Shown piece by piece: positions 7,008-35,400 of a stretch of 64,000 bases of DNA; the first letter of the stretch is position 1, and each line of letters begins with the position of its first letter. The translations under genes and the position numbers were made by a program. The stretch spans positions 30,059,452 through 30,123,451 of the forward strand of contig CM026426.1 of the NCBI GenBank assembly GCA_014871385.1, in the 5' to 3' direction. The notes under the pieces are model-generated. The model did not search any database, was not told the origin of the DNA, and saw only the letters and a program-made list of their open reading frames with translations. The stretch comes from Ceratodon purpureus (taxonomy: Eukaryota; Streptophyta; Bryopsida; Pseudoditrichales; Ditrichaceae).

Positions 7008-7941
7008 TGTCGGAACAAGGAAACGCAACTAACATCCGGATAGCACTCTAATTGAGCGTAAACTTCCGTATTGTCACTAGGTCCCGAGTATTGTCCAGGG
7101 ATTCAATAGTGTTTCACCAAGTAGTTACTTATAATAGTTCCGAGCCTTGCCACTGATCGGATAGTGTACCCGGAACGTAACTCCTCGACTATCGCTCTCT
7201 CTCTTTCTTGTTCTCGTTAGGTGTTTCGTCCACAAACCCCAACGTCTTGGAACAGCTATCGTTTCACAACTGTCTTAGAGTACTCTGGCCAGCAGGTCAC
7301 ACAAACGACCTTTTCCGATCCGGGAGACTACAACGACAAACCAATCCGGCTCTGGGAGAACCAGGATCCGATTATCCCTAGGCGACCCGTACCACGTTCC
7401 GAATCCCCCTCTCACAGTGTACGGAACCTCTTCAGAAGTTCAGAGAGCCCGATCAAGTACCCCTCGATCCGCTTCGACCCTAGCGACGGCTATTCCGCGT
7501 GAGGTTGGGTTGGGGACGGAACAGTGAGGCTTCACTCCTACGACAATCCACTAAATCTTTCCGCTCAATCCTATTACCTTTCCGGTTCGGGTCTCGTCAC
7601 AACTCCCATCACCTTCCTATCCAAGCTACAGCGGAACTCTCATATCCTTCACTGATCATTCACACTTACCTGGAAACCACGTACAGTACTTGCAAAACAC
7701 GAATACTTTACTGATAAGGAATATAGGGAGAAAACATGCAAAACGAAGACCCGGATTGCATCGCCTTCCCCGTTTAAGTAAGCAGGGGCTTTCACAAAAG
7801 CGGCGGCGCCGGCAGTTCAATCAAAAACCCTAATCCCTAGTTATCTACCTAGAATCCTACTTTACGACTAAACCGGATCTCCCGATCCGAAATCTACTCC
7901 TATAAATCCGGAAAGTGACGGCCAGTTGCAGCGAGAGGAAT

Positions 7942-8572
7942 CTACCCCATCTTCGTCTTCTTGTGGCTCTCCTGCTCGCGGTCCTTCTCCTTCGACCTGG
8001 TCATCCGTGGCTCGGATCCTCCTGCCCTCGCTGCCCGCTCCGCCTGATGCCTAGCACTCCGTTCCGCTTTTGACTCCTTCGTCTGGGCCTCCAAGGACAG
8101 CCGGGTAACGATTCGGTTCTTGGGAGAGTTGGGAGACTTAGGCAACATATGCGTGGGAGGGGTTTCGGTCGTAGGGGTCCGAGTCCCAGTTCCGGCTGTC
8201 CCAACCGGAGAGTTCGCATAGGTTTCCGAGTCGGACCCGGAAATCGTAATGGGGCCCTTCTCTGTCGGATCCTTCCTCTTCCTCAAAACTCTCCGAGCAC
8301 CGGAACTGTCAGCAGGGGAGTCCACCACTGGCGTTCCGGTGGGGGTAGGAGTCACCGTTCCGGTCTTGGCTGTGGGTGAAGGGGTAAGTGCCCCCTCCTG
8401 AATCACTCGGGTCCGTCCGGTTGGTGAAATCGCTCGTCCCCATTCCGCTCCTGCTACCTCCCCTTGATAAGCCGGCATGATCACCGACGATCCGAGTGTT
8501 GGGAGAACAGCCGGCTGCACGGGCCGGGTCACCTCTTCCGTAATCGTCCGCTCTTCGGATCGCCTAACGGTG
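7942..8572 (-). pseudogene. C-terminal part of the LTR-encoded ORF in the solo LTR
   Basis: Homologous to about the last 210 residues of the 731-codon ORF in element B. It has the same VAGAEWGR block, the TPSPTAKTGTVTPTPTGTP Thr/Pro run, an RKRK basic cluster and the basic RMTRSK...SHKKTK tail. The frame is open but its N-terminal half lies 13.4 kb away at 21940-23530, separated by element B. It shows that the C-terminal tail is conserved between diverged family members. Confidence 0.8.
8568..8572. other. Target-site duplication of element B, left copy
   Basis: cggtg directly before the TG of the element B LTR at 8573; identical to 21935-21939. Confidence 0.92.
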
Positions 8573-8700
8573 TGTCGGAACACGGAAACGCAACTAACAT
8601 CCGGACAGTGCTCTAATTGAGCGTAAACTTCCGTACTGTCACTAGGTTCCGAGTATCGTCCAGGGATTCAATAGTGTTTCACCAAGTAGTTACTTCTAAT

Positions 8701-8742
8701 CGTTCCGAGCCTTACCACTGCTCGGATAGTGTCTTCGGAACG
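8701..8742 (-). other. Paired overlapping inverted repeats in the LTR (3' LTR copy)
   Basis: Outer arms cgttccga (8701-8708) and tcggaacg (8735-8742) are perfectly complementary. Inner arms ccgagc (8705-8710) and gctcgg (8720-8725) overlap the left outer arm, so the two hairpins exclude each other. The same structure is at 18410-18451 in the other LTR. It lies downstream of the LTR ORF, near the LTR 3' end in sense orientation. Confidence 0.5.
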
Positions 8743-9505
8743 TAACTCCCGAACTATCTCCTTCTCTATTCTTCTCTCATTAGGTGTTTCGTCCACAAAC
8801 CCCAACGTCTCGGATCAGTTACCGTCTCACAACTGTCCTAGAGTACTCTGGCCAGCAGGTCACACAAACGATCCTCTCCGATTCGTGGGACTACAACGAC
8901 AAACCAATCCGGATCTGGGAGAACCAGGATCCGATTATCCCTAGGCGACCCGTACCACGTTCCGACTCCCCCTCTCACTATGCACGGAACCTCTTCAGAA
9001 GTTCAGGGAGCCCGACCAAGTAGTTCTTGATCCGCTTCGACCCTAGCGACGGCTATTCCGTATGAGGTTGATTTGGGGACGGAACAGTGAGGCTTCACTC
9101 CTACGACAATCCGCTAAATCTTTCCGCTCAATCCCATTTCCTTTCCGATTCGGGTCTCGTCGCAACTCCCATCACCTTCCTATCCGAGCTACAGCGGAAC
9201 TCTCATATCCTTCCCGGATCATTCACACTTAGCGGGAAATCACGCACAGTACTTACGAAACACAAATACTTTACTGATAAGGAATATAGGGGGAAAACAT
9301 GCAAAACGAAGACCCGGACCGCATCGCCTGCCCGGTTTAAGTAAGCAGGGGCTTCACAAAAGCGGCGGCGCCGGCAGTTCAATCAAAACCCTAATCCCTA
9401 ACTACCTACCTAGAATTCTACTTTACGACTAGGACGGATCTCCCGATCCGGAATCTACTCCTATAAATCCGGAAAGTTACGACAAGTGGCAGTGAGAGGA
9501 ATCTA

Positions 9506-11701
9506 TCACTTCTTTGTCTTCTTGTGGCTCTCCTGCTCGCGATCCTTCGACCTGGTCACCCGCGGCTCTGATCCGCCCGCCCCTGCTGCTCGTGCCGCCT
9601 TGCGCCTAGCACTCCGTTCCGCCTTTGACTCCCTCTCCTGAGCCTCCAAAGACAACCGGGTAACGATCCGGGGCTTGGGAGAATTGGGCGATTTCGGAAT
9701 CATATGTGCGGGAGGAGTTCCGGACGTCGGAGTCTGAGTTTCAGTTCCGGTGGTCCTGACCGGAGAGCTCCCATGCGTCTCTGAGTCGGACTCGGAAATC
9801 GTAATCGGCTCCTTCCTTTTCCGCAACCTCCGGAACTCACCGACAGTGTTCTGAGGGGAACCTGCTGCTGGCGTTCCGGTGGGAGTAGGCGTCACCGTTC
9901 CGGTCTTGGCTGTGGGTGAAGGGGTCAATCCCCCCTCCTGAGTTACTCGGGTCCGTCCGGGTGGTGAAATAGGTCGTCCCCATTCCGGTCCCGCTACCTC
10001 CCCTCGGTAATTCGCAATGATCACTTCATCTCCGAGTCGTGGAAGAACATCCGGCGGCACGGTCCGAGTCACCTGTTCCGAAACCGTCCTCTCCTCGATC
10101 CGCCTCTCGGTGACTGTCGTTCCGGTCACCTGCACCTGTCCGGTGGGGATCGCGCAGCTCTGCTGGACTGTACTGGTTCCGGGTGACACCGCCTGTGCTT
10201 GGACTTCTCGGATCGCCTCCGCAATCGTCCGATTTGTCATGGCGGCTTCTTCGGCCGTCATCTGTTCTGCTGCTTGGAGGTTACTCCCTATCGGGGTTCG
10301 GAACCCCACTCCGCGAGATTCTCCTACCACGGCACGGGAGGGCGATCCGGGGAGCGGAAGACCCCGGCCAGCGCCTACGAGACTGGGACTTCCGGTGCTC
10401 GGATTGAGCAGCTGCCGGACCTTCTTCAGGATCATGTTCATCGAATGCTCGCACTTGGAGAGGATCTTGATAATCTTCTGCTTGTCCTCGAAATCAGCCG
10501 GCTGCACTACGTTCTCATCGAACAGCCGGGCCTTGTTGATTACCGCTCCGGAACTTCCCACCAACTTCCGAAGCTCCCCCAAAGTCTCCTCCTGCTCGGC
10601 GTGGAACTTACGGATCTCGTCACTCTTCGCCGCCAGCTCCTTCGTCAACTCCTGCAACTGAAGCTCCAGCCGCTTCTTCTCACTCCGGAGAGTTGGGGCA
10701 TCCTTCAACAACTCCACTTCTCGGATCACCTCTTCCGGTAAGCACCCTCCCAGCGCTGTACAGACCCTCCGGAACAGGGTTTCGATCCGATCATAAGAAG
10801 CTTGAGCCCGGTGAGTCTCCTCCCGAATTCCCCGAAACAGGTCCACCGGAAATCCCCGATCGGAACTGACCTCTCTCCGTTCCGGATCTCCCCGGGCCGT
10901 AGACGGTTCCGCGTGTCGTGACGCGGGCTGCTCCGATCTCGATCTGGACTGAGCCCTAGCAGCGCCAGGGTTCGGAACTTCCCTCGTATCGTCCTCATCC
11001 TCCGAGTCCGTTGTATCAGAGGGCTCACCTCGCGGATCGGGTTCCATTCCGGGCGGAATCTCCGAGAAGTTGAGGCAGTTCTTCGCGTGCGTATACGTCT
11101 CGTCCTCCTTATCGGTCAGCAAGTCATTCGCATGGTAAAGGTGAAAGAGGTAAGGGGAGAGTGGGGTCGGCTTCTTTCCGATCGTCGGAACCATCTTCTG
11201 CACCACTTCCGCCATGAGTGCAGCCCAATTTACCGGACGTTCTCCTGTATACGCTCCGAGGATGGTATTCCCGACCGTAATGGTAACTTGTGCCGGTTTC
11301 TGCGGATATAGGATCGGGACGAGGAAAGCTAAGACCTGCCTCTGCCTCCTATCCTTGCAGGCGTCTATCTCGTATCCATTGTTCCTATGGATCTTCCCGT
11401 GGAACCTATCCTGCACGTACTGATCCGTCCGGGTCGCCCAAAGGAGTCCCTTCTGCTCGAAACCGTAAGCTTCCGCCCACTGTTCCGCATTCCACAGCGT
11501 GGGCTTGCCTCGGATCGTTTTATCCCACCGGTTGTCCGGACCTTCCAGGACCTCCCTCACCATCACCTCACTCTTCAGTAACCACGGCCGTGCCAACAAT
11601 CCCTCACACCTCATCCGAGTGAGGTCGGTGATCAGTTCCTCCATATCCGATTCCTTCACTGGAGTTCCGGGGCTAAGGACGCAACACTGAACGCGTGCCA
11701 T
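9506..11701 (-). CDS. LTR-encoded accessory protein (3' LTR copy)
   Basis: 731 codons, ATG at 11699-11701, identical to the copy at 19215-21410. Residues about 1-210 look globular, with WNAEQWAEAYGF, PVNWAALMAEVV and LSPYLFHLYH blocks; these faintly resemble plant transposon-associated (Transposase_32-like) domains. Next come an acidic patch (about 222-240), an Arg/Ser stretch (248-280), a coiled coil (about 328-382), a Thr/Pro-rich region with TPSPTAKTGTVTPTPTGTP, and a strongly basic tail (last 40 residues, possible nuclear signal). In the 3' LTR this ORF lies downstream of pol. Function unknown. Confidence 0.85.
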   Translation of the reverse strand: MARVQCCVLSPGTPVKESDMEELITDLTRMRCEGLLARPWLLKSEVMVREVLEGPDNRWDKTIRGKPTLWNAEQWAEAYGFEQKGLLWATRTDQYVQDRFHGKIHRNNGYEIDACKDRRQRQVLAFLVPILYPQKPAQVTITVGNTILGAYTGERPVNWAALMAEVVQKMVPTIGKKPTPLSPYLFHLYHANDLLTDKEDETYTHAKNCLNFSEIPPGMEPDPRGEPSDTTDSEDEDDTREVPNPGAARAQSRSRSEQPASRHAEPSTARGDPERREVSSDRGFPVDLFRGIREETHRAQASYDRIETLFRRVCTALGGCLPEEVIREVELLKDAPTLRSEKKRLELQLQELTKELAAKSDEIRKFHAEQEETLGELRKLVGSSGAVINKARLFDENVVQPADFEDKQKIIKILSKCEHSMNMILKKVRQLLNPSTGSPSLVGAGRGLPLPGSPSRAVVGESRGVGFRTPIGSNLQAAEQMTAEEAAMTNRTIAEAIREVQAQAVSPGTSTVQQSCAIPTGQVQVTGTTVTERRIEERTVSEQVTRTVPPDVLPRLGDEVIIANYRGEVAGPEWGRPISPPGRTRVTQEGGLTPSPTAKTGTVTPTPTGTPAAGSPQNTVGEFRRLRKRKEPITISESDSETHGSSPVRTTGTETQTPTSGTPPAHMIPKSPNSPKPRIVTRLSLEAQERESKAERSARRKAARAAGAGGSEPRVTRSKDREQESHKKTKK

Positions 11702-11835
11702 CTCTACTCCTCACTTCTCTCCCTCTACGATCCGACAGCAAGAAACCCGGCAATCCAACTGCCGGTGAATCGGAAAAGACAAGGACACCTCACCGCTCTT
11801 TCACTCTCTACTCCCAGTTCGCAAAAAGGAACTCC

Positions 11836-11906
11836 AAACCCTAACACCCTCGCTTATATACCCCCGGCATAATAAACGCTGTGGCGGCCCGTAATTGCAG
11901 CCGCCA
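11836..11906 (-). promoter_or_regulatory. LTR promoter module (3' LTR copy): GCC-box inverted repeat, TATA box, telo-box
   Basis: In sense order: perfect 7-bp inverted repeat tggcggc/gccgcca (11882-11888, 11900-11906) containing the GCC-box AGCCGCC; TATA box TATATAA (11854-11860); telo-box TTAGGGTT/AAACCCTA (11836-11843). The order and spacing are kept in the diverged solo LTR at 23664-23733, which argues that the module is functional. Confidence 0.65.
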
Positions 11907-12060
11907 ACGTACCGGGGTAAACGCCTATCCGAGTCATGATGACTTCCGCGTCGCTTCGGATCCTTGACGCGGTTACAGTAACGGTCAGTACTCGGATCGT
12001 CCACCCGTTCCGTATCTTATCTTCCGAGTTTCCGGGATCCAGGTTCCGGGGACACTTCCT

Positions 12061-12079
12061 ACGTTAACTGTTTTAACGT
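12061..12079 (-). other. Inverted repeat in LTR upstream region
   Basis: acgttaactgttttaacgt: perfect 7-bp arms, 5-bp loop. Repeated at 21770-21788. It lies in the 5' (U3-side) part of the LTR upstream of the TATA box and could be a protein-binding site (MYB-like core). The solo LTR has only a partly conserved version. Confidence 0.4.
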
Positions 12080-12225
12080 TTCTGGAGTATCCGATTTGCG
12101 TTAACTACTAATGCTGCTAGTGTCTGGCCAGTTTTTACCTAATTAACCAAAAAAATGAAAAATAAATGAAATACTTACGCCGGCTGGGGCCTTTCCGGTT
12201 TATTCTGAGTTTCTCGGATCCCACA

Positions 12226-12238
12226 TTACCCCATTTTC
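12226..12238 (-). other. Element B polypurine tract
   Basis: Minus strand GAAAATGGGGTAA, directly abutting the TG of the 3' LTR, as expected for the plus-strand primer. Confidence 0.85.
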
Positions 12239-12261
12239 AAATGTGAGAGTCCCCGCGAACA

Positions 12262-12699
12262 CTATTCTTCTTCCTCCCCTTCCGGGCTTTCGCTTCCTTC
12301 GGTGTCTGTGAACTCCTCAGGGTTGTAATTCTTCACTCGGGATCCGTTCACCCGGGTTTCGAAGCTATTTCCCTGGAGGTCCGCCAGTTGTAATGATCCG
12401 TTTTCAAAGATCCGCGTAACCCGGTAAGGTCCCATCCATCTCGTATGTAACTTTCCCGGAAACTTTTGGTGCCGATTATCGTATAAGAGCACCAAGCCTC
12501 CTTCTACCACCTTATTGTCCTTAGGAATTTTCTTGTCGTAGGTCTCCTTACGCTTTGCCTGGACATCTACAGCCTGCTGTAGAGCGCCTCTCCTGACTTC
12601 TTCCAGATCCTGTAGTGCCACGATCCGGTACCCCGGATCCTCGACTCTCGTCCCGTGACGGGCAGCCATAACCCGTAAGGTTTCTACCTCCAACTCCAC
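12262..12699 (-). pseudogene. Element B integrase C-terminal domain (frameshifted)
   Basis: 145 codons overlapping the end of the pol frame by 16 bases in a different frame. It encodes the normal end of a gypsy integrase: a helix with YDKK, an LVLLYD strand, a KLHTRWMGPYRV (GPY/F) block and a very acidic tail (EGSESPEGEEEE). There is no chromodomain. The shift comes from an apparent two-base duplication (AG) near 12695-12700, so pol ends about 145 residues early. Its first codon is not a real start. Confidence 0.85.
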
Positions 12700-15600
12700 T
12701 CTGGAACTGCGGATTGTCCAAAAACTAGGAAGAACGGACTCTTACCCATGGTTTTCTTCTCACTGGTATTGTAGGCGTGTACAGCTGAAGGGAGCTTCCG
12801 ATCCCAATCCGTCTTATGAGCCGAGACCATCTTGTTCAGAATCTTTCCGACGATGCCATTGGCTCGTTCCGTCAGCCCATTCGCTTTCGGATTATAAGGG
12901 GTCGTCTTCCGGTGCTTGATGAGATACCGTTCCGTGATATTGATGATGACATCGTTCAGGAAATGTTTTCCCCGGTCACTTACCAGCTCTAACGGATGTC
13001 CAAATCTCATCATTATTTCTTCAAAGAGAAATGTGGCTGCGGCTGCGGCGTCATTCTTCACCGTTGCTCTTGCCTCTACCCATCTGGTCGCATAATCCGT
13101 AGCCAGGATAATGTATCTCCTCTTCCGGGCTGTGACCGGATTGATCGGTCCGATAAAGTCTATCCCCCATTTTTCAAACGGAGCCAAGGGAATAATGGGA
13201 GTGAGGGGCCAGTGGTTTCGGAACGAGGGTGCCCCGGTTCTTTGACACTGGTCACACTGCCCTACGAATTCCTTCACGTCTCGGGAGAGGTACGGCCACC
13301 AATATCCGGCTGATCGGATTCGCTTGATGGTTGTATCCGAGGCGAAATGGCCGCCCGAGGGTCCGGCGTGTAAGGCCCTCATGACCTGCCTTCTTTCGGA
13401 TTCCTCGAGGCACCTCCGTAATACATCATCCGGTCCCATCCGGAAAAGTACTCCTCGGATCAGTGTGAAAGGAGCTACTGTATTCTGAAATACCATCTTC
13501 TCCTCCCGCGTAAATCCCTCCGGGTACCTCCGTTGTGTTAAATACTGGATAATCTCTGAATAATCGGAGTTCTCCGTTCCGGAAATGTGAAATACCTCCG
13601 CCTCTTCCGGAAACTCATCCGGGAACGTGGCGGTGATGTCCGAGACTGCTTCCGGGCCTCGCATCCTTGACAGGTAGTCAGCGTTGGCATTGGCCTTACC
13701 CGGTTTCACTACTACCTCGTAGTTGAATTCCTGGAGCAGCAAGATCCATCGTGCAATACGCCCTGAGAGATCCGGTTTGTTCACCAAATACTTCAGGGAG
13801 TCATGATCCGTATGGAACACGATCTTGTATCCGAGAAGGTAGTGTCGGAACTTCTTGCAGGCGTAAACTACCGCCAAGGCTTCCCGTTCAGTGGTAGTAT
13901 ATTTCCGTTCCGCAAGGCTCATCTGCCTGCTAGCATAATAGATCGGGTGCTCCTTCCGATCCTCCCCTTGCTGCCACAGAATCGCCCCTAGGCACCACCC
14001 GGAAGCGTCGATTGTCACATGGAATTCCTTCGACCAATCCGGTGCTGATAGGATCGGAGCGGTGGTCAGGGCCTTCTTCAGTTCCTCGAACGCTTGCTGT
14101 CTCCGTTCCGTCCACAAAAACTCTTCTTCCTTCTTCAACAGTTCCGTTAATGGGGCTGCCAATTTGGCATATGCAATAATAAACCTCCGGTAGTATCCGA
14201 CGCATCCTAGGAATCCTCGGACCTCTCGGACGTTGGTGGGAGACACTAGAATAAGGATAGCTCGTACCTTATCCGAATCGACTTCCAACCCGTTCCGACT
14301 TACGATGTGCCCGAGAAGAATTCCGGAAATCATCCCCATAAAACATTTTCCGGGGTGTAATTTCAGTCCGGTTTCCCTGCACCTCTGGAAGGTCCTTCGG
14401 AGGTACTCGAGATGTTCCTTCCACTTACTGAACACCGCGAAGTCATCGATGAAGACTTCTAGAAAATGCCTCAAGAAATCTCGGAAAATATCCACCATCA
14501 GCCTTTGGAATGTTCCGGGAGCGTTACACAGTCCGAAGGGCATTCTGTTGAAGGCGAACGTCCCCCATTCCGTGGTGAAGGTCGTCTTCAGCTGATCTTC
14601 TTCCCGGATCGACACCTGGTTGTAACCGGAAAATCCATCAAGAAAGCTGTAGCACTCCTGCCCTGCCACGTGGTCGAGGATAATGTCCGTAAAAGGTAAC
14701 GGAAAGTAATCCTTCTTTGTGGCCGCATTCAGTTTCCGGAAATCTTGACAAACTCGGATCTTGACTTTCCCATCCGAGCCAACCTTCTTCGGAACGACGA
14801 CTATGGGCGATACCCACTCGGAATTATTTACTGGATAAATGAATCCGGCTTTCAGGAGGCTATCGATCTCTTCCTTCACCATCAGAGAATACTTCGGATT
14901 GAGCCTGTACTGGCGTTGTCTGACCGGAACTGATCCGTCAACCAAGTCTATATGATGTTGGCCGAGTTCCGGAGGTATTCCCTTGAGGTCGGATGGTGAC
15001 CAAGCGAATACGTCTAAATATTCCTTTAGTAAATCCACATACTCCTTTCTCTGTTCCTTGCTCATGCTTCGCCCTAGCAGAAATGTCTTTCCGGGGGCTA
15101 CTTCCACCTTCTCATAGTCGGACGGTTTCACAACGTTCTTGACTCGCTCCGATTCCTGTTCCTCTCCCTGATCCGTCCATGCGCTCCACACCCGGACAGG
15201 GGTGTCCGGATCGAGACCCATGGCGGGCAGGTTTCCCTCCTCGACCTGTTGTCGGAACCATTCGGCTGAGAGTGGAACACTTCCTTCTCCGAGAGAGCGA
15301 TCCTCCGGTACCGGGAATTTCACGTGCTCCGATGATGGTTGGGGTTGCTCACTGATCGGATTATGAAATCGGAAGTCATCCTCGGTAACTTCCGAGAACT
15401 GGTTCACGAAATAACTAAATACTTCGTCATCCTCCTCTTCCGGGTCGGACCAATCAGAAGTATACCCATCCGAGCCACTGGTTTCCCCTAGATATCCATC
15501 CATCTTCCACGGAATCCGCTGATTGGTTTTTCCGAGTACGAACTCCTTGGCTCCCCAATCAACGAGGACTCGTGCCATGTATAGCCAGGGTCTTCCCAAC

Positions 15601-16406
15601 AACATCGGAAAGGGACGGCCCGTACTAACTCGGATTATCACGTAATTCAAGAGGTATGTTACCTCTCCGATCGTGGTCGGAACCTGGGACAACCTTCCCA
15701 CGGGTTTAACTCTAGATTGATCCGCCATTCGTAACACCTGATCGGTGGATTCGAACGAGGTGTATCCGAGTTCAAAGGCCGTATCTTCCAGCATCAGGTT
15801 CACACCGGATCCTCCATCTACCGGAACTTTCGGTATAGCACATCCTTCTATTAGCACCGTCAGTTCCGGGGCTCCGTGATCCTCAACCTGTAAGAAGTTA
15901 GTAGCTACAGACGGAAGCTTCACCCCTCGGCGCCTCCGCTTCGTCCATGCCTCTCGGATTACCTTCTGGTAATTCACATTGTCATGGAGCAACTGTCCAA
16001 TCGTGACATTTGCCTTGAGGGATTTGATGTCCCCCAGAATGTCATACTCGTCCACTCTGGGATCGGAAGGAATAACCACCGGAACGTCATCAAACCGGAC
16101 CGAAGGCTTGGTGATCTTCCGGGAAAGGGGATCCGTGAGTTCTTTCCGAACTTCCTCACTGATATCTTCCGGGAGGTTCCCTCCTTCCACCCCATTTTCC
16201 GCTCCTGGACGGTCATTTTCTTCTGGTAAAGCTCTGGTTACCGTAGAGGGTTCGGATCCTGAATCCGAATCCACTCTCCTGGATCTTACCCTCCTCCTGG
16301 TCTTCCGGGATTTCGGAAGCTCCGGTTCCTGGGCACGCTCTCTAGCGGAACTACGGGTTGATACTCTGTGTACTGGTACTTCCGCGCCCTCCTGTAGTTC
16401 CGTCAC
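12684..16406 (-). CDS. Element B Pol: protease-RT-RNase H-integrase
   Basis: About 1,240 codons in the same frame as gag, beginning two codons after gag's TGA. The first possible codon in the track is GTG 16404-16406; I infer entry by readthrough, not initiation. Order: basic linker; protease VDGGSGVN near residue 197; RT with VSPIVVVPKK, FRKLNAAT and catalytic FIDD near 652; RNase H with VTIDAS and TTEREALAVVYACKKFRHYL (about 780-900); integrase with HHCC finger (DQCQRTG) and D,D-35-E blocks (WGIDFIGP, VSDRGKHF, NPKANGLTERANG). It ends prematurely by frameshift at 12684. Confidence 0.93.
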   Translation of the reverse strand: MTELQEGAEVPVHRVSTRSSARERAQEPELPKSRKTRRRVRSRRVDSDSGSEPSTVTRALPEENDRPGAENGVEGGNLPEDISEEVRKELTDPLSRKITKPSVRFDDVPVVIPSDPRVDEYDILGDIKSLKANVTIGQLLHDNVNYQKVIREAWTKRRRRGVKLPSVATNFLQVEDHGAPELTVLIEGCAIPKVPVDGGSGVNLMLEDTAFELGYTSFESTDQVLRMADQSRVKPVGRLSQVPTTIGEVTYLLNYVIIRVSTGRPFPMLLGRPWLYMARVLVDWGAKEFVLGKTNQRIPWKMDGYLGETSGSDGYTSDWSDPEEEDDEVFSYFVNQFSEVTEDDFRFHNPISEQPQPSSEHVKFPVPEDRSLGEGSVPLSAEWFRQQVEEGNLPAMGLDPDTPVRVWSAWTDQGEEQESERVKNVVKPSDYEKVEVAPGKTFLLGRSMSKEQRKEYVDLLKEYLDVFAWSPSDLKGIPPELGQHHIDLVDGSVPVRQRQYRLNPKYSLMVKEEIDSLLKAGFIYPVNNSEWVSPIVVVPKKVGSDGKVKIRVCQDFRKLNAATKKDYFPLPFTDIILDHVAGQECYSFLDGFSGYNQVSIREEDQLKTTFTTEWGTFAFNRMPFGLCNAPGTFQRLMVDIFRDFLRHFLEVFIDDFAVFSKWKEHLEYLRRTFQRCRETGLKLHPGKCFMGMISGILLGHIVSRNGLEVDSDKVRAILILVSPTNVREVRGFLGCVGYYRRFIIAYAKLAAPLTELLKKEEEFLWTERRQQAFEELKKALTTAPILSAPDWSKEFHVTIDASGWCLGAILWQQGEDRKEHPIYYASRQMSLAERKYTTTEREALAVVYACKKFRHYLLGYKIVFHTDHDSLKYLVNKPDLSGRIARWILLLQEFNYEVVVKPGKANANADYLSRMRGPEAVSDITATFPDEFPEEAEVFHISGTENSDYSEIIQYLTQRRYPEGFTREEKMVFQNTVAPFTLIRGVLFRMGPDDVLRRCLEESERRQVMRALHAGPSGGHFASDTTIKRIRSAGYWWPYLSRDVKEFVGQCDQCQRTGAPSFRNHWPLTPIIPLAPFEKWGIDFIGPINPVTARKRRYIILATDYATRWVEARATVKNDAAAAATFLFEEIMMRFGHPLELVSDRGKHFLNDVIINITERYLIKHRKTTPYNPKANGLTERANGIVGKILNKMVSAHKTDWDRKLPSAVHAYNTSEKKTMGKSPFFLVFGQSAVPEWSWR

Positions 16407-16415
16407 GAACCGTCA
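16331..16415 (-). promoter_or_regulatory. Predicted gag-pol UGA readthrough signal
   Basis: Gag ends in TGA (16413-16415) followed by CGG in the sense strand, and pol continues in the same frame. Ten bases further is a perfect 9-bp stem: CGGAACTAC (16394-16402) with GTAGTTCCG (16346-16354), loop 39 bases. GGGCGC inside the loop (16384-16389) can pair with GTGCCC beyond the stem (16331-16336, one G-U), giving a possible pseudoknot. UGA-CGG plus a 3' structure is the known layout of efficient readthrough sites (tobraviruses and others; murine leukaemia virus uses a pseudoknot at its gag-pol stop). Confidence 0.7.
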
Positions 16416-18083
16416 TTTGTCCGGATTCTCTATCCCACCCGAGTGACCGTAGTTTAGCCCAGTCATCTCTCTCGGAGGAACCTCTACCTGTTTGAAAGTC
16501 GGGCGGGGTTGTGCCGGTTTGGCACACTGAGGAGCCGTATGACCGTACTCTCCGCAATTTTGGCACGGAAGGATCCGCGGTGCTCCCTGCCCTTGTCGCT
16601 CAAACGGACAGTTAGGTGCGTAATGATCCGGGCTCCCACAGTTAAAGCAGTACCCGTGGGTCGGCTTCTGGTACATCGGCCTACCCGGAACGTTCTGTGG
16701 GATCCGGTATCCGGCGGGAGGACGGGCTATCTGGATCGGAGCCTTCCCTCGTCCGTAAGTGGTCTGAACCTGATATACAGGTTGGTACTCCTCCATCTGA
16801 AACTCTTCCTCTTCCGGATAGGCAAAGTACACTTCTCCTTCCGGATGGACGTAGTGGATACGTTTCTGGCGGGGTTCAGTACACTCCGGAGGATAATGTC
16901 CTTGCTTTCCGCAGTTAGCACACCACACATTAGCTCTGCTGGTGGGAATCATCTTACGAGGTTTCCGATTCTCGGAAAGGTGGACGTTGAGTTCGGCAAT
17001 CGATTCTCGGATCTCCTTCATCTCCTTCATGACCTTCCGAGAATCGTCATCCTCCACCTTCACCTTGATCAACTCTCGGTTCCGTCTAGGCCGGGTGTCT
17101 CTACTGGAGCCGCCTCGGCGTTTCGAGGCTCCCCTGGAGTCCTCTTCCGACTGATCGGAACTGGATGAAGTGGAATCGCTCTTACTGGTAGAGTCGGAAT
17201 CTTCCGAAGAGGACTCGTGCCTCCGCCGGCGCTCTCTCTCCTTCCGGATCTTCTTACCCCGCTTCTCGGTATGCTTCAGAGACTTCCGTAGAGATTGGGC
17301 CGAGTTCTCATAGTTCTGAGCCGCTTCCACGGCTTCCTGAAGTGTGGCGGGACGGGTTTGTCGGATCTGAAACCCCATCTCCTCTGGGAATCCGGCGACA
17401 AACCATTCCACTTGTACACTCGGAGCTATGGCCGTAGTGAGTTTCTGTATGAGCGCCTTTACTCTCTGACTGTACTTTCGTACTGACTCGGAAGATCTCA
17501 TCGTCATACGACTCAGCTTTCCGAGCGCGCGAGCCTCTCCTCCGGCCTCACGGAACGTGCGTCGGAACAAGGTCACGAAACTGGTCCAGTCGTTACGTGT
17601 GCGTTCCGGAACGTCTTGGTACCACTGTAGAGCTTCTCCCTTCAGAAGACCTTGGAATATCCTTCTCTTCGCGTCCGGATCTTCCTGATTGGCCAGAGCA
17701 ATGGATTCGAACTCACAGAGCCATTCGTCCACGTCTTGACTTCCGTCTCCTTTGAATCGGTTGTACTTCAGTCGGGTAGAGGGTGCCATCGGATTGTCTT
17801 CCTCGTCTTCTTCCTCTTCCTCGGTCTCCTCTTCTACTCCTGCGTCGGCTCCGACTTCGTCAGCTACGACCTCTTCTTCTTCCGGATCTGGAGCTGTACC
17901 TGCTCCGGCTGTGGAGGTTCCGGCCAACGACACCACGATTACGTCTCCTTCTCGTTCTACAGCAGTCTGGATCCGGGGAAGTAGATTCGTTCCCGGTAGA
18001 TCGTGTACCAAAACTCTTCCCCTCTTCTGTAGCAACCGAGTGGATCTTCTTCCCCCTAACTCTTCCGGTTGCGCCCCAACCAT
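16413..18083 (-). CDS. Element B Gag
   Basis: The first ATG of the frame is at 18081-18083, giving 556 residues. The frame is open back to about 18242 without an ATG, so a longer non-ATG form is possible. A very acidic N-terminal region is followed by a retrotransposon gag (capsid) domain with the LKYNRFKGDGSQDVDEWL and ALQWYQD blocks. Next comes a basic Arg/Ser/Lys-rich stretch with poly-Ser, then three CX2CX4HX4C knuckles (CANCGKQGHYPPEC, CFNCGSPDHYAPNC, CQNCGEYGHTAPQC). Three knuckles is more than usual. It stops at TGA 16413-16415, in frame with pol. Confidence 0.93.
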   Translation of the reverse strand: MVGAQPEELGGRRSTRLLQKRGRVLVHDLPGTNLLPRIQTAVEREGDVIVVSLAGTSTAGAGTAPDPEEEEVVADEVGADAGVEEETEEEEEDEEDNPMAPSTRLKYNRFKGDGSQDVDEWLCEFESIALANQEDPDAKRRIFQGLLKGEALQWYQDVPERTRNDWTSFVTLFRRTFREAGGEARALGKLSRMTMRSSESVRKYSQRVKALIQKLTTAIAPSVQVEWFVAGFPEEMGFQIRQTRPATLQEAVEAAQNYENSAQSLRKSLKHTEKRGKKIRKERERRRRHESSSEDSDSTSKSDSTSSSSDQSEEDSRGASKRRGGSSRDTRPRRNRELIKVKVEDDDSRKVMKEMKEIRESIAELNVHLSENRKPRKMIPTSRANVWCANCGKQGHYPPECTEPRQKRIHYVHPEGEVYFAYPEEEEFQMEEYQPVYQVQTTYGRGKAPIQIARPPAGYRIPQNVPGRPMYQKPTHGYCFNCGSPDHYAPNCPFERQGQGAPRILPCQNCGEYGHTAPQCAKPAQPRPTFKQVEVPPREMTGLNYGHSGGIENPDK

Positions 18084-18253
18084 GGAAGAGATTGGGAATT
18101 CTTCTTCTGATCCCTCGGAAGGCGAGATCTGCACGTAAGACTTCCGCCTACCGCATATCCACCTAAATGAAGCCTTCACGGTCTGACTCCACTTTTCTTC
18201 AAATCTGCGCTCACTTATCTTCCGAGTATCCACCTGGTTCACAGCTTATCGAA

Positions 18254-18271
18254 TCCCCGGCAGCGGCGCCA
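18254..18271 (-). other. Element B primer-binding site
   Basis: Minus strand TGGCGCCGCTGCCGGGGA, ten bases inside the 5' LTR end. It is close to the tRNA-Asp complement used by many plant Athila/Tat elements, and differs from the TGGCGACC type of elements A and C. Confidence 0.85.
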
Positions 18272-19214
18272 GATTTTTACGTGTCGGAACACGGAAACGC
18301 AACTAACATCCGGACAGTGCTCTAATTGAGCGTAAACTTCCGTACTGTCACTAGGTTCCGAGTATCGTCCAGGGATTCAATAGTGTTTCACCAAGTAGTT
18401 ACTTCTAATCGTTCCGAGCCTTACCACTGCTCGGATAGTGTCTTCGGAACGTAACTCCCGAACTATCTCCTTCTCTATTCTTCTCTCATTAGGTGTTTCG
18501 TCCACAAACCCCAACGTCTCGGATCAGTTACCGTCTCACAACTGTCCTAGAGTACTCTGGCCAGCAGGTCACACAAACGATCCTCTCCGATTCGTGGGAC
18601 TACAACGACAAACCAATCCGGATCTGGGAGAACCAGGATCCGATTATCCCTAGGCGACCCGTACCACGTTCCGACTCCCCCTCTCACTATGCACGGAACC
18701 TCTTCAGAAGTTCAGGGAGCCCGACCAAGTAGTTCTTGATCCGCTTCGACCCTAGCGACGGCTATTCCGTATGAGGTTGATTTGGGGACGGAACAGTGAG
18801 GCTTCACTCCTACGACAATCCGCTAAATCTTTCCGCTCAATCCCATTTCCTTTCCGATTCGGGTCTCGTCGCAACTCCCATCACCTTCCTATCCGAGCTA
18901 CAGCGGAACTCTCATATCCTTCCCGGATCATTCACACTTAGCGGGAAATCACGCACAGTACTTACGAAACACAAATACTTTACTGATAAGGAATATAGGG
19001 GGAAAACATGCAAAACGAAGACCCGGACCGCATCGCCTGCCCGGTTTAAGTAAGCAGGGGCTTCACAAAAGCGGCGGCGCCGGCAGTTCAATCAAAACCC
19101 TAATCCCTAACTACCTACCTAGAATTCTACTTTACGACTAGGACGGATCTCCCGATCCGGAATCTACTCCTATAAATCCGGAAAGTTACGACAAGTGGCA
19201 GTGAGAGGAATCTA

Positions 19215-21410
19215 TCACTTCTTTGTCTTCTTGTGGCTCTCCTGCTCGCGATCCTTCGACCTGGTCACCCGCGGCTCTGATCCGCCCGCCCCTGCTGCTC
19301 GTGCCGCCTTGCGCCTAGCACTCCGTTCCGCCTTTGACTCCCTCTCCTGAGCCTCCAAAGACAACCGGGTAACGATCCGGGGCTTGGGAGAATTGGGCGA
19401 TTTCGGAATCATATGTGCGGGAGGAGTTCCGGACGTCGGAGTCTGAGTTTCAGTTCCGGTGGTCCTGACCGGAGAGCTCCCATGCGTCTCTGAGTCGGAC
19501 TCGGAAATCGTAATCGGCTCCTTCCTTTTCCGCAACCTCCGGAACTCACCGACAGTGTTCTGAGGGGAACCTGCTGCTGGCGTTCCGGTGGGAGTAGGCG
19601 TCACCGTTCCGGTCTTGGCTGTGGGTGAAGGGGTCAATCCCCCCTCCTGAGTTACTCGGGTCCGTCCGGGTGGTGAAATAGGTCGTCCCCATTCCGGTCC
19701 CGCTACCTCCCCTCGGTAATTCGCAATGATCACTTCATCTCCGAGTCGTGGAAGAACATCCGGCGGCACGGTCCGAGTCACCTGTTCCGAAACCGTCCTC
19801 TCCTCGATCCGCCTCTCGGTGACTGTCGTTCCGGTCACCTGCACCTGTCCGGTGGGGATCGCGCAGCTCTGCTGGACTGTACTGGTTCCGGGTGACACCG
19901 CCTGTGCTTGGACTTCTCGGATCGCCTCCGCAATCGTCCGATTTGTCATGGCGGCTTCTTCGGCCGTCATCTGTTCTGCTGCTTGGAGGTTACTCCCTAT
20001 CGGGGTTCGGAACCCCACTCCGCGAGATTCTCCTACCACGGCACGGGAGGGCGATCCGGGGAGCGGAAGACCCCGGCCAGCGCCTACGAGACTGGGACTT
20101 CCGGTGCTCGGATTGAGCAGCTGCCGGACCTTCTTCAGGATCATGTTCATCGAATGCTCGCACTTGGAGAGGATCTTGATAATCTTCTGCTTGTCCTCGA
20201 AATCAGCCGGCTGCACTACGTTCTCATCGAACAGCCGGGCCTTGTTGATTACCGCTCCGGAACTTCCCACCAACTTCCGAAGCTCCCCCAAAGTCTCCTC
20301 CTGCTCGGCGTGGAACTTACGGATCTCGTCACTCTTCGCCGCCAGCTCCTTCGTCAACTCCTGCAACTGAAGCTCCAGCCGCTTCTTCTCACTCCGGAGA
20401 GTTGGGGCATCCTTCAACAACTCCACTTCTCGGATCACCTCTTCCGGTAAGCACCCTCCCAGCGCTGTACAGACCCTCCGGAACAGGGTTTCGATCCGAT
20501 CATAAGAAGCTTGAGCCCGGTGAGTCTCCTCCCGAATTCCCCGAAACAGGTCCACCGGAAATCCCCGATCGGAACTGACCTCTCTCCGTTCCGGATCTCC
20601 CCGGGCCGTAGACGGTTCCGCGTGTCGTGACGCGGGCTGCTCCGATCTCGATCTGGACTGAGCCCTAGCAGCGCCAGGGTTCGGAACTTCCCTCGTATCG
20701 TCCTCATCCTCCGAGTCCGTTGTATCAGAGGGCTCACCTCGCGGATCGGGTTCCATTCCGGGCGGAATCTCCGAGAAGTTGAGGCAGTTCTTCGCGTGCG
20801 TATACGTCTCGTCCTCCTTATCGGTCAGCAAGTCATTCGCATGGTAAAGGTGAAAGAGGTAAGGGGAGAGTGGGGTCGGCTTCTTTCCGATCGTCGGAAC
20901 CATCTTCTGCACCACTTCCGCCATGAGTGCAGCCCAATTTACCGGACGTTCTCCTGTATACGCTCCGAGGATGGTATTCCCGACCGTAATGGTAACTTGT
21001 GCCGGTTTCTGCGGATATAGGATCGGGACGAGGAAAGCTAAGACCTGCCTCTGCCTCCTATCCTTGCAGGCGTCTATCTCGTATCCATTGTTCCTATGGA
21101 TCTTCCCGTGGAACCTATCCTGCACGTACTGATCCGTCCGGGTCGCCCAAAGGAGTCCCTTCTGCTCGAAACCGTAAGCTTCCGCCCACTGTTCCGCATT
21201 CCACAGCGTGGGCTTGCCTCGGATCGTTTTATCCCACCGGTTGTCCGGACCTTCCAGGACCTCCCTCACCATCACCTCACTCTTCAGTAACCACGGCCGT
21301 GCCAACAATCCCTCACACCTCATCCGAGTGAGGTCGGTGATCAGTTCCTCCATATCCGATTCCTTCACTGGAGTTCCGGGGCTAAGGACGCAACACTGAA
21401 CGCGTGCCAT
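19215..21410 (-). CDS. LTR-encoded accessory protein (5' LTR copy)
   Basis: 731 codons, ATG 21408-21410 in good context (G at +4), identical to the copy at 9506-11701. It lies about 150 bases downstream of the TATA box at 21563-21569, and I see no earlier AUG in the predicted leader. It would thus be the first ORF on the genomic RNA, ahead of gag. Domains: N-terminal globular (1-210), acidic patch, Arg/Ser stretch, coiled coil (about 328-382), Thr/Pro-rich region, basic tail. A similar globular-then-coiled-coil layout is seen in the extra ORF of element C. Candidate roles (RNA/DNA binding, silencing control, particle function) are speculative. Confidence 0.87.
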   Translation of the reverse strand: MARVQCCVLSPGTPVKESDMEELITDLTRMRCEGLLARPWLLKSEVMVREVLEGPDNRWDKTIRGKPTLWNAEQWAEAYGFEQKGLLWATRTDQYVQDRFHGKIHRNNGYEIDACKDRRQRQVLAFLVPILYPQKPAQVTITVGNTILGAYTGERPVNWAALMAEVVQKMVPTIGKKPTPLSPYLFHLYHANDLLTDKEDETYTHAKNCLNFSEIPPGMEPDPRGEPSDTTDSEDEDDTREVPNPGAARAQSRSRSEQPASRHAEPSTARGDPERREVSSDRGFPVDLFRGIREETHRAQASYDRIETLFRRVCTALGGCLPEEVIREVELLKDAPTLRSEKKRLELQLQELTKELAAKSDEIRKFHAEQEETLGELRKLVGSSGAVINKARLFDENVVQPADFEDKQKIIKILSKCEHSMNMILKKVRQLLNPSTGSPSLVGAGRGLPLPGSPSRAVVGESRGVGFRTPIGSNLQAAEQMTAEEAAMTNRTIAEAIREVQAQAVSPGTSTVQQSCAIPTGQVQVTGTTVTERRIEERTVSEQVTRTVPPDVLPRLGDEVIIANYRGEVAGPEWGRPISPPGRTRVTQEGGLTPSPTAKTGTVTPTPTGTPAAGSPQNTVGEFRRLRKRKEPITISESDSETHGSSPVRTTGTETQTPTSGTPPAHMIPKSPNSPKPRIVTRLSLEAQERESKAERSARRKAARAAGAGGSEPRVTRSKDREQESHKKTKK

Positions 21411-21544
21411 CTCTACTCCTCACTTCTCTCCCTCTACGATCCGACAGCAAGAAACCCGGCAATCCAACTGCCGGTGAATCGGAAAAGACAAGGACACCTC
21501 ACCGCTCTTTCACTCTCTACTCCCAGTTCGCAAAAAGGAACTCC

Positions 21545-21615
21545 AAACCCTAACACCCTCGCTTATATACCCCCGGCATAATAAACGCTGTGGCGGCCCG
21601 TAATTGCAGCCGCCA
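21545..21615 (-). promoter_or_regulatory. LTR promoter module (5' LTR copy)
   Basis: Telo-box 21545-21552, TATATAA 21563-21569, and the GCC-box inverted repeat 21591-21597/21609-21615 upstream. This copy is placed to drive the genomic transcript; the predicted start is about 25-35 bases below the TATA box, giving a leader of about 125 bases. The leader contains a 6-bp hairpin (ccggca/tgccgg, 21456-21461 and 21469-21474). Confidence 0.65.
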
Positions 21616-21934
21616 ACGTACCGGGGTAAACGCCTATCCGAGTCATGATGACTTCCGCGTCGCTTCGGATCCTTGACGCGGTTACAGTAACGGTCAGTAC
21701 TCGGATCGTCCACCCGTTCCGTATCTTATCTTCCGAGTTTCCGGGATCCAGGTTCCGGGGACACTTCCTACGTTAACTGTTTTAACGTTTCTGGAGTATC
21801 CGATTTGCGTTAACTACTAATGCTGCTAGTGTCTGGCCAGTTTTTACCTAATTAACCAAAAAAATGAAAAATAAATGAAATACTTACGCCGGCTGGGGCC
21901 TTTCCGGTTTATTCTGAATTTCTCGGATCCCACA

Positions 21935-21939
21935 CGGTG
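21935..21939. other. Target-site duplication of element B, right copy
   Basis: cggtg directly after the CA end of the 5' LTR at 21934; matches 8568-8572. Confidence 0.92.
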
Positions 21940-23063
21940 ACTGTAGTCCCTGTCACCTCCGCCTGACCGGTGGGGATCGCGCAGCCTTGCTGAACCGTGC
22001 TGGCTCCGGGTGACGCCACCTGTCCTTGGTGTTCCCGGATCATATCTGCGATCGTCCGAGCCGGCTTGAAGATATCCGCGTCAACCGCCATCTGCTCCTC
22101 AAGCTGGAGGTTGCGCTCTATTGGGGTCCGGAATCCTACCCCACGAGATTGCCCTACAACGGTCCGGGAGGGAGATCCATGAAACGGGTGGTTCCGACAA
22201 ACGGTTCCGACGCTAGGACTTCCGACTCCCGGATTGAGCAACTGCCAAACCTTCTTCAGAATCTGGTTCATCGAGTGCTCGCATTTGGAGAGAATCGTGA
22301 TGATCTTCTGCTTGTTCTCCAAATCTGCAGGCTGCAATACATTCTCGTCGAACAACCGGGCCTTGTTGACTACAGCACCCGAATTCCCCACCAACTTCCA
22401 AAGCTCCCCCAAGGTCTCCTCTTGCTCGGCATGGAACTTCCGGATCTCCTCGCTCTTCGTCGCCAGTTCCATCGTAAGCTCCTGCAACTGAAGCTCCAAC
22501 TGCTTTTTCTCACTCCGAAGTTTCGGGGCGTCCTTCAAAAGCTCTACCTCTCGGATCACCTCCTCCGGTAAACAGCCCCCGAGAGACGTACAGACCCTCC
22601 TGAACAGTGTCTCGATCCGATCGTAAGAGGCCTGCGCCTGATGAATTTCCTCCGGAATCCCCCGGAATAGTTCAACCGGAAATCCCCGCTCGGAAATGAC
22701 CTCCTTCCGTTCCGTATCTCCCCGGGCCGTGGAGGGCTCCGGGTGCTGCGATGCAGCGTGTTCCGATCGTGACTTGGACTGAGCCTTCGTAGCGCCGGGA
22801 TTCGGAATGATCGTTGTATCATCATCCCGTTCCGTGGACGCTGTATGCGAGGTTTCGCCGTGCGGTTCGACATCCATCCCTGGTGGAACCTCAGCAAAGG
22901 TGAGGAAGTTCTTCGCCGTCGTATAATCCTCCTCCTCCCTCTCCCTCAGCAAACTATACGAGTGGTAAAGGTGGTAGAGAAAAGGGCTGATCGGGGTCGG
23001 CTTCTTTCCGATCGATGGCACCATCTTCTGCACGGTTTCCGCTATGAGCGCGGCCCAATTCAC
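21940..23063 (-). pseudogene. Middle part of the LTR-encoded ORF in the solo LTR
   Basis: Homologous to about residues 158-545 of the 731-codon protein, from the VNWAALIAETVQKM block through the acidic patch, Arg/Ser stretch and coiled coil. It is separated from the N-terminal piece (23159-23530) by a one-base deletion near 23170 and from the C-terminal piece by the insertion of element B. Confidence 0.82.
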
Positions 23064-23158
23064 CGGACGTTCCCCCGTGTACGCTCCGAAGATGGTGTTC
23101 CCGACCGTAATGGTGACCTGTTCCGGTTTCAGCGGATACAGGATCGGAACGAGGAAGG

Positions 23159-23530
23159 CTAAGACCTGTCATGTCTCCTATCCTTGCAGGGGTCTATCTC
23201 GTATCCGTTATTCTTATGGATCTTCCCGTGAAACCTATCCTGTACGTACTTATCCGTCCGGGTTGCCCAAAGGAGTCTGTTCTGCTCGAAGTCGTAAGTT
23301 TCCGCCCACCGTTCCGCACTCCACAGCGTGGGCTTGCCCCGGATTGTATTGTCCCACCTATTATCCGGTCCGTCCAGGATCTCCCTCACCATCGCCTCAT
23401 TCTTCAACAACCACGGTTGTGATAGCAAACCCTGGCACCTCATCTGGGTGAGATCGTCAATCAACTCTTCCATATCCGACTCTCTCACCGGAGTGCCGGG
23501 ACTAAGAACTCTACACTGAACGTGCGCCAT
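23159..23530 (-). pseudogene. N-terminal part of the LTR-encoded ORF in the solo LTR
   Basis: 123 codons from ATG 23528-23530, collinear with residues 1-120 of the element B protein. It breaks frame where the intact copy reads CKDRRQRQ, because of a one-base deletion. The start codon and spacing to the TATA box match those in element B. Confidence 0.82.
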
Positions 23531-24053
23531 TTCTACGTCTCACTTCTCTCCCTTTGCGATCCGACAGCAAGAAACCCGGCAATCCAACTGCCAGTGAATC
23601 GGAAAAGACAAGACACCTCACCGCTCTTTCACTCTCTACTCCCAGTCCGCAAAAAGGAACTCCAAACCCTAACATCCTCGCTTATATACCCAGGGCATCA
23701 TAAACGCTGCGGCGGCCCGTAATTGCAGCCGCCACCGTACCGAACTAGACGCCTATCCGAGTCATGATGACTTCCGCGTCGTTTGGGATCCTAGACGCGG
23801 TTACAGTAACGGTCAGTTCTCGGATCGTCAACCCTTTCCGTGTTTTCTCTTCCGAGTTTCCGGAATGAAGGTTCCGAGAATACTTCCTCCGTTAACTGTT
23901 TTAAGGTTTCTCGAGTATCCGGTTTGCGTTAACTCCTAATGCAGCTAGTGTCTAGCTAGTTTTTACCTAATTAACCAAAAAAATGAAAAATTAATGGAAT
24001 ACTAACTCCGGATGAGGCTCTTCCGGTTTATTCTGAGTTCCTCGGGTCCCACA

Positions 24054-30621: not shown

Positions 30622-31053
30622 TGATAGAAGGAGGATTTACCAACCAAACCCTAATCTCTATAAACCCATCAAAACCCTACAAAACCCAACACATTCAAGT
30701 ACTCCAACCACTCCTAACAAGCTAGAAACATACAATACAAGTGGAGAAAAGAGTCAAAACTGCAATTAATGAGTCAAAACAGCCCATAACCATGGTACAG
30801 CAGCCTCTAACGGTTCTCAGACTCCTCTAACTCTAACTGCTCTAGTCTGGAATGATTACAGGAAACCCTAAAGTTGCCTCTTAAACCCCCTTGAACCTGG
30901 CGGCTATCATCCAGTCGGCTGGACAGAGTTCATCCAGTTGGCTGGACAGAGTTCATCCAGTTGGCTGGATGACTGTCTGGGGACTGCCAATGTAAAAATT
31001 GAGGGGACCTAAAGGAAACTAAGAAAAAGGGGGAGAGTGATCTCCGGTTAACA
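30622..31053 (-). repeat. Element C 3' LTR
   Basis: TGATAG...GGTTAACA, 432 bp. Holds three telo-boxes AAACCCTA (30646-30653, 30672-30679, 30863-30870) and a 23-bp near-tandem repeat (catccag at 30908, 30931, 30954). The tandem units have diverged in the other LTR. Confidence 0.95.
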
Positions 31054-31057
31054 TGAT

Positions 31058-31068
31058 CCCCTTTTTCC
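31058..31068 (-). other. Element C polypurine tract
   Basis: Minus strand GGAAAAAGGGG, four bases upstream of the 3' LTR. Confidence 0.8.
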
Positions 31069-31281
31069 GGTAGTTCTGTCCTCAAAACGTGCGGGTAGCA
31101 GAAAAAAGAAGGAATGCAAACTGGGCCCTAAAAAATGCAACAGGTGAAAATAGCTCTAAACAAAACTGTTTGCGCTAACGGACTACTCTAAAGCCTAAAT
31201 CCGGTGAACACTATTCTACAAACCACACAGAAGCTGTGGGCAAGTCGGCTATGTCGTTGGCGGAGCATCATCGTCCATCAA

Positions 31282-34200: not shown

Positions 34201-34776
34201 GGGCTCAACCTTAACCCGACAAGCTGGCTGAGGTGCCTGACGCGAAACGGGAAAAACAGCAGCAGGAATTGGGGACAAGAGTGACTGTCGAGACTGAACT
34301 TCAAGACAGCAAGGAGGGTGAATAAGGTGAGTGCGATCGAAGGATCGCTGACCTGAACCGCTGGTTGGAGGGAGGTGACTGGAAGGCGCGTCAATGTGGG
34401 AAAAACCCCGCCGAGCGTATGCTGCTGTGACTCCCGGATCAGCCCTAGAAATCGCCTCCAATGTGCAGGGTGGTGAGTGCGAGGATGCTCCGCCTGATGC
34501 TGAGTAACACTGAATCCGCAAAGGAATGCCACCGATAATGCGCTCCTCGCTAGCTGGGTGACCACAAACGGGCCGGCTGGAGATCGGTTGGAGAGGATCG
34601 CGGGAAGAAATGTGTGCTGAGGAACAGCGTGAGCAGGGCGATGGGTGCGGAGTCGGTGAAGGGGAGCGCGGCCTGTGAAACCCTAAGTCGTCCCTAGAGT
34701 GAGCTGTCTCGGGCTGGAGGCTAAAAACACGTTCAATGACTGTATCCCTGGGTCGGACGAGGGCGGCAGTTCGCAA
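31282..34776 (-). pseudogene. Element C extra ORF: Transposase_32-like domain plus coiled coil
   Basis: Two open stretches in the same frame (34776-32011 and the rest down to 31282), broken only by TAG 32011-32013. The first codon of the open stretch is TTG; a later ATG is at 33778-33780. Layout: long Ser/Pro-rich disordered N-terminus; a globular domain (about residues 414-630) with a GKPVEITAFVIREALGFDSG block and a YVLANLRRHLIYIH block, resembling the plant transposon-associated domain Transposase_32; a Pro/Ser/Thr-rich linker; and a C-terminal coiled coil (about 180 residues, LATTLQSTAIARDQLVKDK). The position between integrase and 3' LTR is typical of Tat-lineage extra ORFs. Function unknown. 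Confidence 0.75.
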
Positions 34777-35400
34777 GGCGTCCTCTATACTCAGCGTATG
34801 TCTGCGAGGACGGAGAAGGGGCTCGGTTGGAGCTGCGTCCAGAGTGAAAGAGAGGGGTTTCTGGGGTATGGGGGTTGGATTTTGGCCTGACCCTAACCCT
34901 AAAACGAACGAGATAGCTTCAGCCCGAGTGCTAAATGGCAGACTGCTAGGGCTCTCTAGGGAACGATGAGATTGGAGTGGGGGGCAGGTCTCGCAGGAGG
35001 TGCTGGCCGGGAGTAGGGGTCCGTTAGGGGCGTAGAGTCAATAAAGCAACACGCCACATGAAAAATTGAATTTGCCAAAGTGGCTGAAGCAATGGGTGAA
35101 GACTGAGTGTTGATGGGGGGAAGTTGCTGACTAAAATCTTAAGGGTCCGTCGTGAAGTGAGTTGGGTCCGCCATGGTTGAAGTAGACGAACTCGGGATGA
35201 GAGAATGAGGAAGGGAGCTACCAAAGCTCGGCTCGGCTCTTAAATGCACTCCTTGCTCGGGTGTCCCATCAGCTTGGTCTTCAGGTATTTCCGTGGACAG
35301 TCCTCATGGCAGCTGCTTAGGGCTAATAGTGACCAATTGATCCGCAGAGTAAAAACAGTATGGTTTTAGCTTATTAATGTTGACGATGATGGGGTCCGGC

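Follow-up and report, generated by a model that had tools for sequence, protein, structure and literature searches.

A 731-codon gene inside the long terminal repeats of a Ty3-type retrotransposon family in the moss Ceratodon purpureus

Element B, a Ty3-type long terminal repeat (LTR) retrotransposon in the genome of the moss Ceratodon purpureus, carries in each of its 3,653-bp LTRs an intact sense open reading frame (ORF) of 731 codons, as a preliminary description of this DNA had stated. The element lies in a stretch of 64,000 nucleotides, referred to here as the window (assembly GCA_014871385.1, contig CM026426.1, positions 30,059,452 to 30,123,451 of the forward strand), and comparison with its relatives across the genome supports the reading of the ORF as an accessory gene that resides in the LTR and is under purifying selection. 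The same comparison supports the view that full copies and solo LTRs alike carry this gene together with promoter-like sequence. Solo LTRs are usually taken as non-coding regulatory remnants. That some of those in this genome are open accessory genes affects repeat annotation, the possibility of help in trans to an element family, and the significance of solo-LTR formation itself.

The gene and the element that carries it

The ORF starts with ATG and occupies LTR positions 525-2720, so that it lies wholly inside the repeat, at 19215..21410 in the 5' LTR and at 9506..11701 in the 3' LTR (minus strand, as are all features of element B given below). When the bases of the LTR were shuffled 300 times, the longest ORF obtained was 193 codons. 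A TATATAA sequence at 21563..21569 (LTR position 366), the candidate promoter of an mRNA for the ORF, precedes the ATG by 159 nt, and the intervening leader of element B is free of ATG, in agreement with the distance of about 150 bases and the AUG-free leader given in the preliminary description. This TATATAA is present in all nine B-family LTRs that cover the site (locus L031 lacks that stretch), and the leader downstream of it is conserved among B-family LTRs, although that of L034 contains an ATG. After the ORF comes a poly(A)-like signal, AGTAAAG, with a T/G-rich stretch (18960..18984), which is kept in 9 of the 10 aligned rows that cover it and reads AGTACAG in L038. The conserved TATA box, leader and AGTAAAG suggest a complete transcription unit within one B LTR. 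The approximately 680 nt of non-coding U5 at the end of the repeat (LTR positions 2976-3653, window 18282-18959) are well conserved across diverged copies.

The element itself is of the Ty3 type, with the LTR pair, target duplication, primer binding site (PBS) and polypurine tract (PPT) all present. The 5' LTR (18282..21934) and the 3' LTR (8573..12225) differ by one mismatch, begin with TGT and end with ACA, and are bordered by the target site duplication CACCG (21935..21939 on the 5' side, 8568..8572 on the 3' side). The PBS-like sequence TGGCGCCGCTGCCGGGGA, which we take to be tRNA-Asp-like, is found ten bases past the 5' LTR (18254..18271), and the PPT-like sequence GAAAATGGGGTAA precedes the 3' LTR (12226..12238). 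Between them lie gag (16413..18083, 556 codons), in which Pfam recognizes a capsid and a zinc knuckle, and the pol frame (12684..16412), which is open from the gag stop and covers protease, reverse transcriptase, RNase H and integrase, the last three matched by Pfam in that order. A chromodomain was not found in the 1,036 residues of pol scanned, a scan that excluded the last part of the integrase, which is in another frame. This end of the integrase region (window 12262-12741) is in a single frame with the remaining pol in other copies. Gag and pol share one frame and are separated by a lone TGA (window 16413-16415) followed by CGG, presumably a leaky-stop context, which is kept in seven of eight copies (L049-L056), the eighth being interrupted.

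Copies of the family and selection on the gene

Selection on the gene was assessed in a sample chosen by DNA and not by protein, ten LTRs taken from the 40 rows of a search with the non-coding LTR/PBS junction. Eight of the ten have full frames with neither stop nor frameshift, and two are split by other insertions (L046 and L047). Among the eight open LTRs the ratio of nonsynonymous to synonymous divergence (dN/dS) is 0.13-0.24, with a pooled value of 0.199 that leaves out the two interrupted copies, and 116 of 193 distinct variants are silent, compared with a mean of 58.6 and a maximum of 77 under neutrality. Neutral placement of the same changes creates 6.3 stops on average but in some runs none, so that it is the excess of silent changes, rather than the absence of stops, that constitutes the strong evidence. 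Eight sequences (element B and L031-L037) yield 28 pairwise dN/dS values of 0.22-0.35, and comparison with three old broken copies yields 0.29-0.31 at synonymous divergence (dS) above 1.

A further comparison is available within the window, where element B has inserted into an older solo LTR (24053..7008, minus strand) that is 82-86% alike to its own. The upstream part of this LTR (21935..24053) holds the first part of a broken ORF with its ATG at 23530, and 7008..8572 is the downstream part; because the duplication TGCCG flanks both outer ends, this older LTR is a true solo LTR. The ORF was said in the preliminary description to be recognizable here, and so it is, though the frame is broken by a 1-bp deletion and an adjoining aligned TGA, possibly the same event, and translation from the ATG of this copy would end at a stop at codon 124. 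Over 729 codons it differs from the ORF of element B by dS 0.617 and dN 0.145 (dN/dS 0.235), with 109, 97 and 238 changes at the first, second and third codon positions. Hence the ratio is low in pooled, pairwise and solo comparisons, and not near 1, the value set beforehand as the one that would tell against a maintained gene. Young copies (ratios of approximately 0.02-0.11) were set aside as a test of selection because they had been chosen by protein identity, and the DNA-sampled copies were used in their place. Twelve LTR pairs, each from within one element, contain two silent and two replacement changes, too few to judge selection after insertion.

Integrity of the ORF was scored genome-wide, as the preliminary description had proposed. 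Among 2,121 candidates, all 61 scored matches are open, a sample biased by its ranking on protein identity, and the DNA-sampled LTRs are mostly open as given above, while among diverged copies 12 of 65 rows are stop-free. The union of three sets (the 61 scored matches, these 12 of 65, and 66 of 69 rows, the other three having been dropped before counting) contains at least 97 distinct copies with no stop inside the match. These include 28 same-strand pairs spaced 9.66-9.71 kb apart, which is the length of the element, and at least two copies that are not whole genes, L031, which has lost promoter and start, and L033, whose frame, counted from the ATG of that copy, meets a stop at codon 9. In two B-family elements (L053 and L056) gag contains stops and the LTR gene (loci L043 and L048) is still open.

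Thirty loci were excised; a PBS follows 15 of the LTRs, a PPT precedes 13, and two are solo LTRs flanked by exact duplications (L011, GTCTC; L020, AGGAT). Six diverged LTRs are also solo with exact 5-bp duplications, namely L031 (GTTAT), L033 (CTAAG), L035 (CCACC), L036 (AGGTT), L037 (ACAGG) and L038 (CTTCA), the last at 69% identity. The duplication of L032 has one mismatch in five, that of L058 is not clear, and L034 and L059 could not be traced to their far ends. The frame is open from the homologous ATG for 735-740 codons in L032, L034, L035, L036 and L037. The earlier proposal that solo LTRs preserve a promoter-gene cassette stands to the extent that they carry it and that some are open; upkeep of a working gene in them by selection is not established.

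The sister family, transcription and the protein

A search with a distant relative (P0025) led to a sister family, represented by element C9, which has two 3,832-bp LTRs that are 99.95% alike, the duplication AAATG, and a PBS and PPT resembling those of element B. At E 0.001 its LTRs do not match the B LTR at the DNA level, its gag and pol share 53% and 67.5% identity with their counterparts in element B, and the product of its LTR gene is 42% identical to the B protein over B residues 14-199. The frame of the C9 copy itself stops after 326 codons, and other copies of the family encode 621-629 residues, one of which (L063) is 31% identical over B residues 12-432. The family is small, since the lower-scoring of the 72 rows retrieved (approximately 30% identity) are B-family copies. 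Three of the five single LTRs inspected are solo LTRs with exact duplications (L070, GTCTT; L071, AGATA; L072, TTTAG) and open frames of 621-629 codons; L063 and L064 have no matching duplications, and between these two dN/dS is 0.20 at dS 0.06. In C9 as well a lone TGA separates gag from pol, followed there by TAT.

Because the LTRs of the sister family contain a homologous, diverged gene, the placement of the gene in the LTR must be old and inherited with gag-pol. Judged by these alignments, the gene kept its place in the LTR throughout the divergence of gag, of pol and of its own sequence, and it has been passed on together with gag-pol at least from the time when the two families separated. 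The earlier proposal that an accessory gene was moved into the LTR goes further than this, as no relative with an internally placed gene was met that would set the direction.

Where transcription begins is suggested by the downstream part of the sister-family LTRs, in which CACGTG and then TTTAAAAGGG, a promoter-like motif, occur after the gene. L062 and L063, which represent two sub-lineages, are 47-83% (mostly approximately 60%) identical in U3, leader and ORF and 89-100% identical over the last 1.3 kb, and the border between these parts is sharp and lies just past the gene, approximately 130 nt ahead of the CACGTG/TTTAAAAGGG motif. Such a mosaic is the expected trace of an exchange of U3 modules between RNAs and so favours a start of the genomic RNA after the gene. 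The mosaic is seen among the loci L062, L063, L064, L070 and L071, and a comparison of L063 with L070 shows saturation at the silent sites of the ORF (pS 0.70). In element B the sequence CTTAAAC (19044..19050), matched by eye in place to TTTAAAAGGG, is a weak candidate for a second start region. The motif and the mosaic border past the gene lead us to prefer two start sites, with a single promoter as the main rival, and would place the gene in U3 rather than making it the first ORF of the genomic RNA, as the preliminary description proposed.

The best joint explanation, for which the case appears evenly balanced, is that of an LTR cassette, a second genomic start after the gene and a nuclear, trans-acting helper. 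Each LTR would be a small gene cassette consisting of a TATA promoter, a short AUG-free leader, the ORF and a poly(A) signal in the same LTR, such that full elements and still-intact solo LTRs could make the accessory mRNA alone. The genomic RNA would more likely be initiated at the second site just past the gene, which would then belong to U3. The encoded protein would most likely be nuclear and act in trans, aiding the family in its replication or expression; what it does biochemically is a guess. The B protein has a conserved N-terminal domain, a coiled-coil-like middle and a basic tail, and the basic clusters near its C-terminus are compatible with a nuclear protein.

Several observations weigh against this explanation. 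The motif downstream of the B gene is weak, and the one canonical TATA box that was found in the B LTR stands before the gene. Sister-family LTRs have no TATA ahead of the gene, and the LTR of one copy contains six ATGs upstream of it. Solo copies decay, as seen from the broken ORF in the window, the damaged L031 and L033 and the low proportion of stop-free diverged rows. Constraint on the LTR gene is weaker than on gag, for which dN/dS in the same elements is 0.03-0.09 in seven of eight copies (two of the seven contain stops, and the range omits the interrupted L055). The nuclear role is read from basic residues and nothing else, and the B protein matches no Pfam family at E 5 and has no significant match in the PDB. 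One sister-family protein aligns with PF20167 (Transposase_32, a family of putative plant transposon proteins; profile positions 19-170 of 177) at 13.9 bits and E 0.049, short of the curated cut-off of 45 bits, and the B protein has no match to this family. The N-terminal domain recurs in relatives from other sources, in many of them together with the middle part, and a basic tail is present in P0002 and P0008; in collections of viral and prokaryote contigs patterns were matched and no relative was confirmed.

A stronger form of this explanation is offered tentatively, as one that may well prove too bold. In this form the LTR gene would be self-spreading, every intact LTR, solo ones included, being a complete unit for a trans-acting protein, and the U3-plus-gene module would be swapped between lineages. 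If so, loss of the internal region would leave the family's helper function unsilenced, and the module would swap as a unit on the shared downstream part of the LTR.

The main rival, which we consider rather unlikely, is a single-promoter model in which RNA starts past TATATAA, the ORF is the first cistron, approximately 2.6 kb of coding R sequence results, and gag is reached through splicing, internal entry or reinitiation. The conserved TATA box ahead of the ORF, the ATG-free leader of element B and the poly(A)-like site after the ORF all agree with this model, but it would leave gag approximately 3.4 kb away from the cap, with the ORF and seven further ATGs in between, and in the sister family the absence of TATA before the gene, the promoter-like motif after it and a mosaic border that suits a U3 module are all contrary to it.

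It is improbable that the product of the gene is not a regulator but an env-like or gag-like protein, structural or part of the particle. The accessory genes of plant elements are often termed env-like in the portion of PMC7264820 consulted, and the coiled-coil-like middle is the most constrained stretch of the protein (dN/dS 0.10, compared with 0.20 for the N-terminal domain), but Pfam gives no match to a gag or env family (no search for membrane helices was run), and the C-terminal tail is basic. A passenger gene, captured from the host or from a foreign source and carried by young copies without function, would agree with the many copies that are young and nearly identical, but is very hard to reconcile with dN/dS of approximately 0.2-0.35 down to saturated silent divergence and with the homologous gene in the sister-family LTRs. 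The least credible idea is that the open frame merely reflects conservation of the DNA or RNA on other grounds, as the well conserved non-coding parts of the LTR might suggest. The excess of silent changes disfavours it at the protein level, divergence at fourfold sites of the ORF is 1.4 to 5.7 times that of U5 (21 pairs) while the amino acids are kept, and the 692-nt U5 has no exceptional predicted fold (z -0.01, 20 shuffles).

Known systems and other elements of the window

The sag gene of the mouse mammary tumour virus (MMTV) is located in U3 and is expressed as its own mRNA. It encodes a superantigen within the LTR of this virus (PMC3026287, as excerpted), and the B-family gene would be a plant counterpart, one that can be compared across many copies and with a diverged sister family. 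In both, an accessory protein is encoded in the LTR, which is unusually long therefore, approximately 1.3 kb in the mouse retrovirus (by the same excerpt) and 3,653 bp in the moss. The moss gene differs from sag in that the LTR provides it with a TATA box and a poly(A)-like site of its own, that it is longer by hundreds of codons and that a diverged sister family exists, and with no Pfam match the B protein cannot be identified as a superantigen.

In plant LTR elements, by contrast, additional ORFs are located in the internal region according to a 2020 review (excerpts of PMC7264820), and a 2019 survey looked for extra ORFs on both sides of the polyprotein (PMC6317226, in part). Athila, Ogre, Retand, Grande and SIRE resemble element B in being (in part) of the Ty3 type and in having an extra conserved protein and large LTRs, but their extra ORF is internal, mostly between pol and the 3' LTR, whereas that of element B is inside the LTR (sections of PMC7264820 and PMC6317226). 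Phygy, a non-chromovirus Ty3 clade described from the moss Physcomitrella (PMC6317226, in part), is like element B a moss Ty3 lineage, and no chromodomain was matched in the part of B pol scanned; compared by description, Phygy differs in being short, with a polyprotein that nearly fills the element and an NCGN target preference. A literature search on ORFs within LTRs or on moss elements, judged from search results rather than full texts, brought up no protein-coding plant LTR, and the lone passage with the phrase "within the LTR" in the excerpt of PMC4299795 concerns another matter.

The window also contains ORFs of 321 residues (43582-44547) and 278 residues (61525-62361), both on the minus strand and with no Pfam match at E 0.1. 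Element C, another retrotransposon (30622-42413, minus strand), has LTRs of 432 bp that are 97% alike and a 724-residue ORF (32011-34185) located, as is usual, after pol and before the 3' LTR, for which one relative, P0013, was found. Kinship of this ORF with the LTR gene is not claimed, as the alignment comprised 35 columns at a probability of 1.5%. Inverted copies of a further gag-pol element, 75.5% alike, lie at 1256-3956 and 50255-52955.

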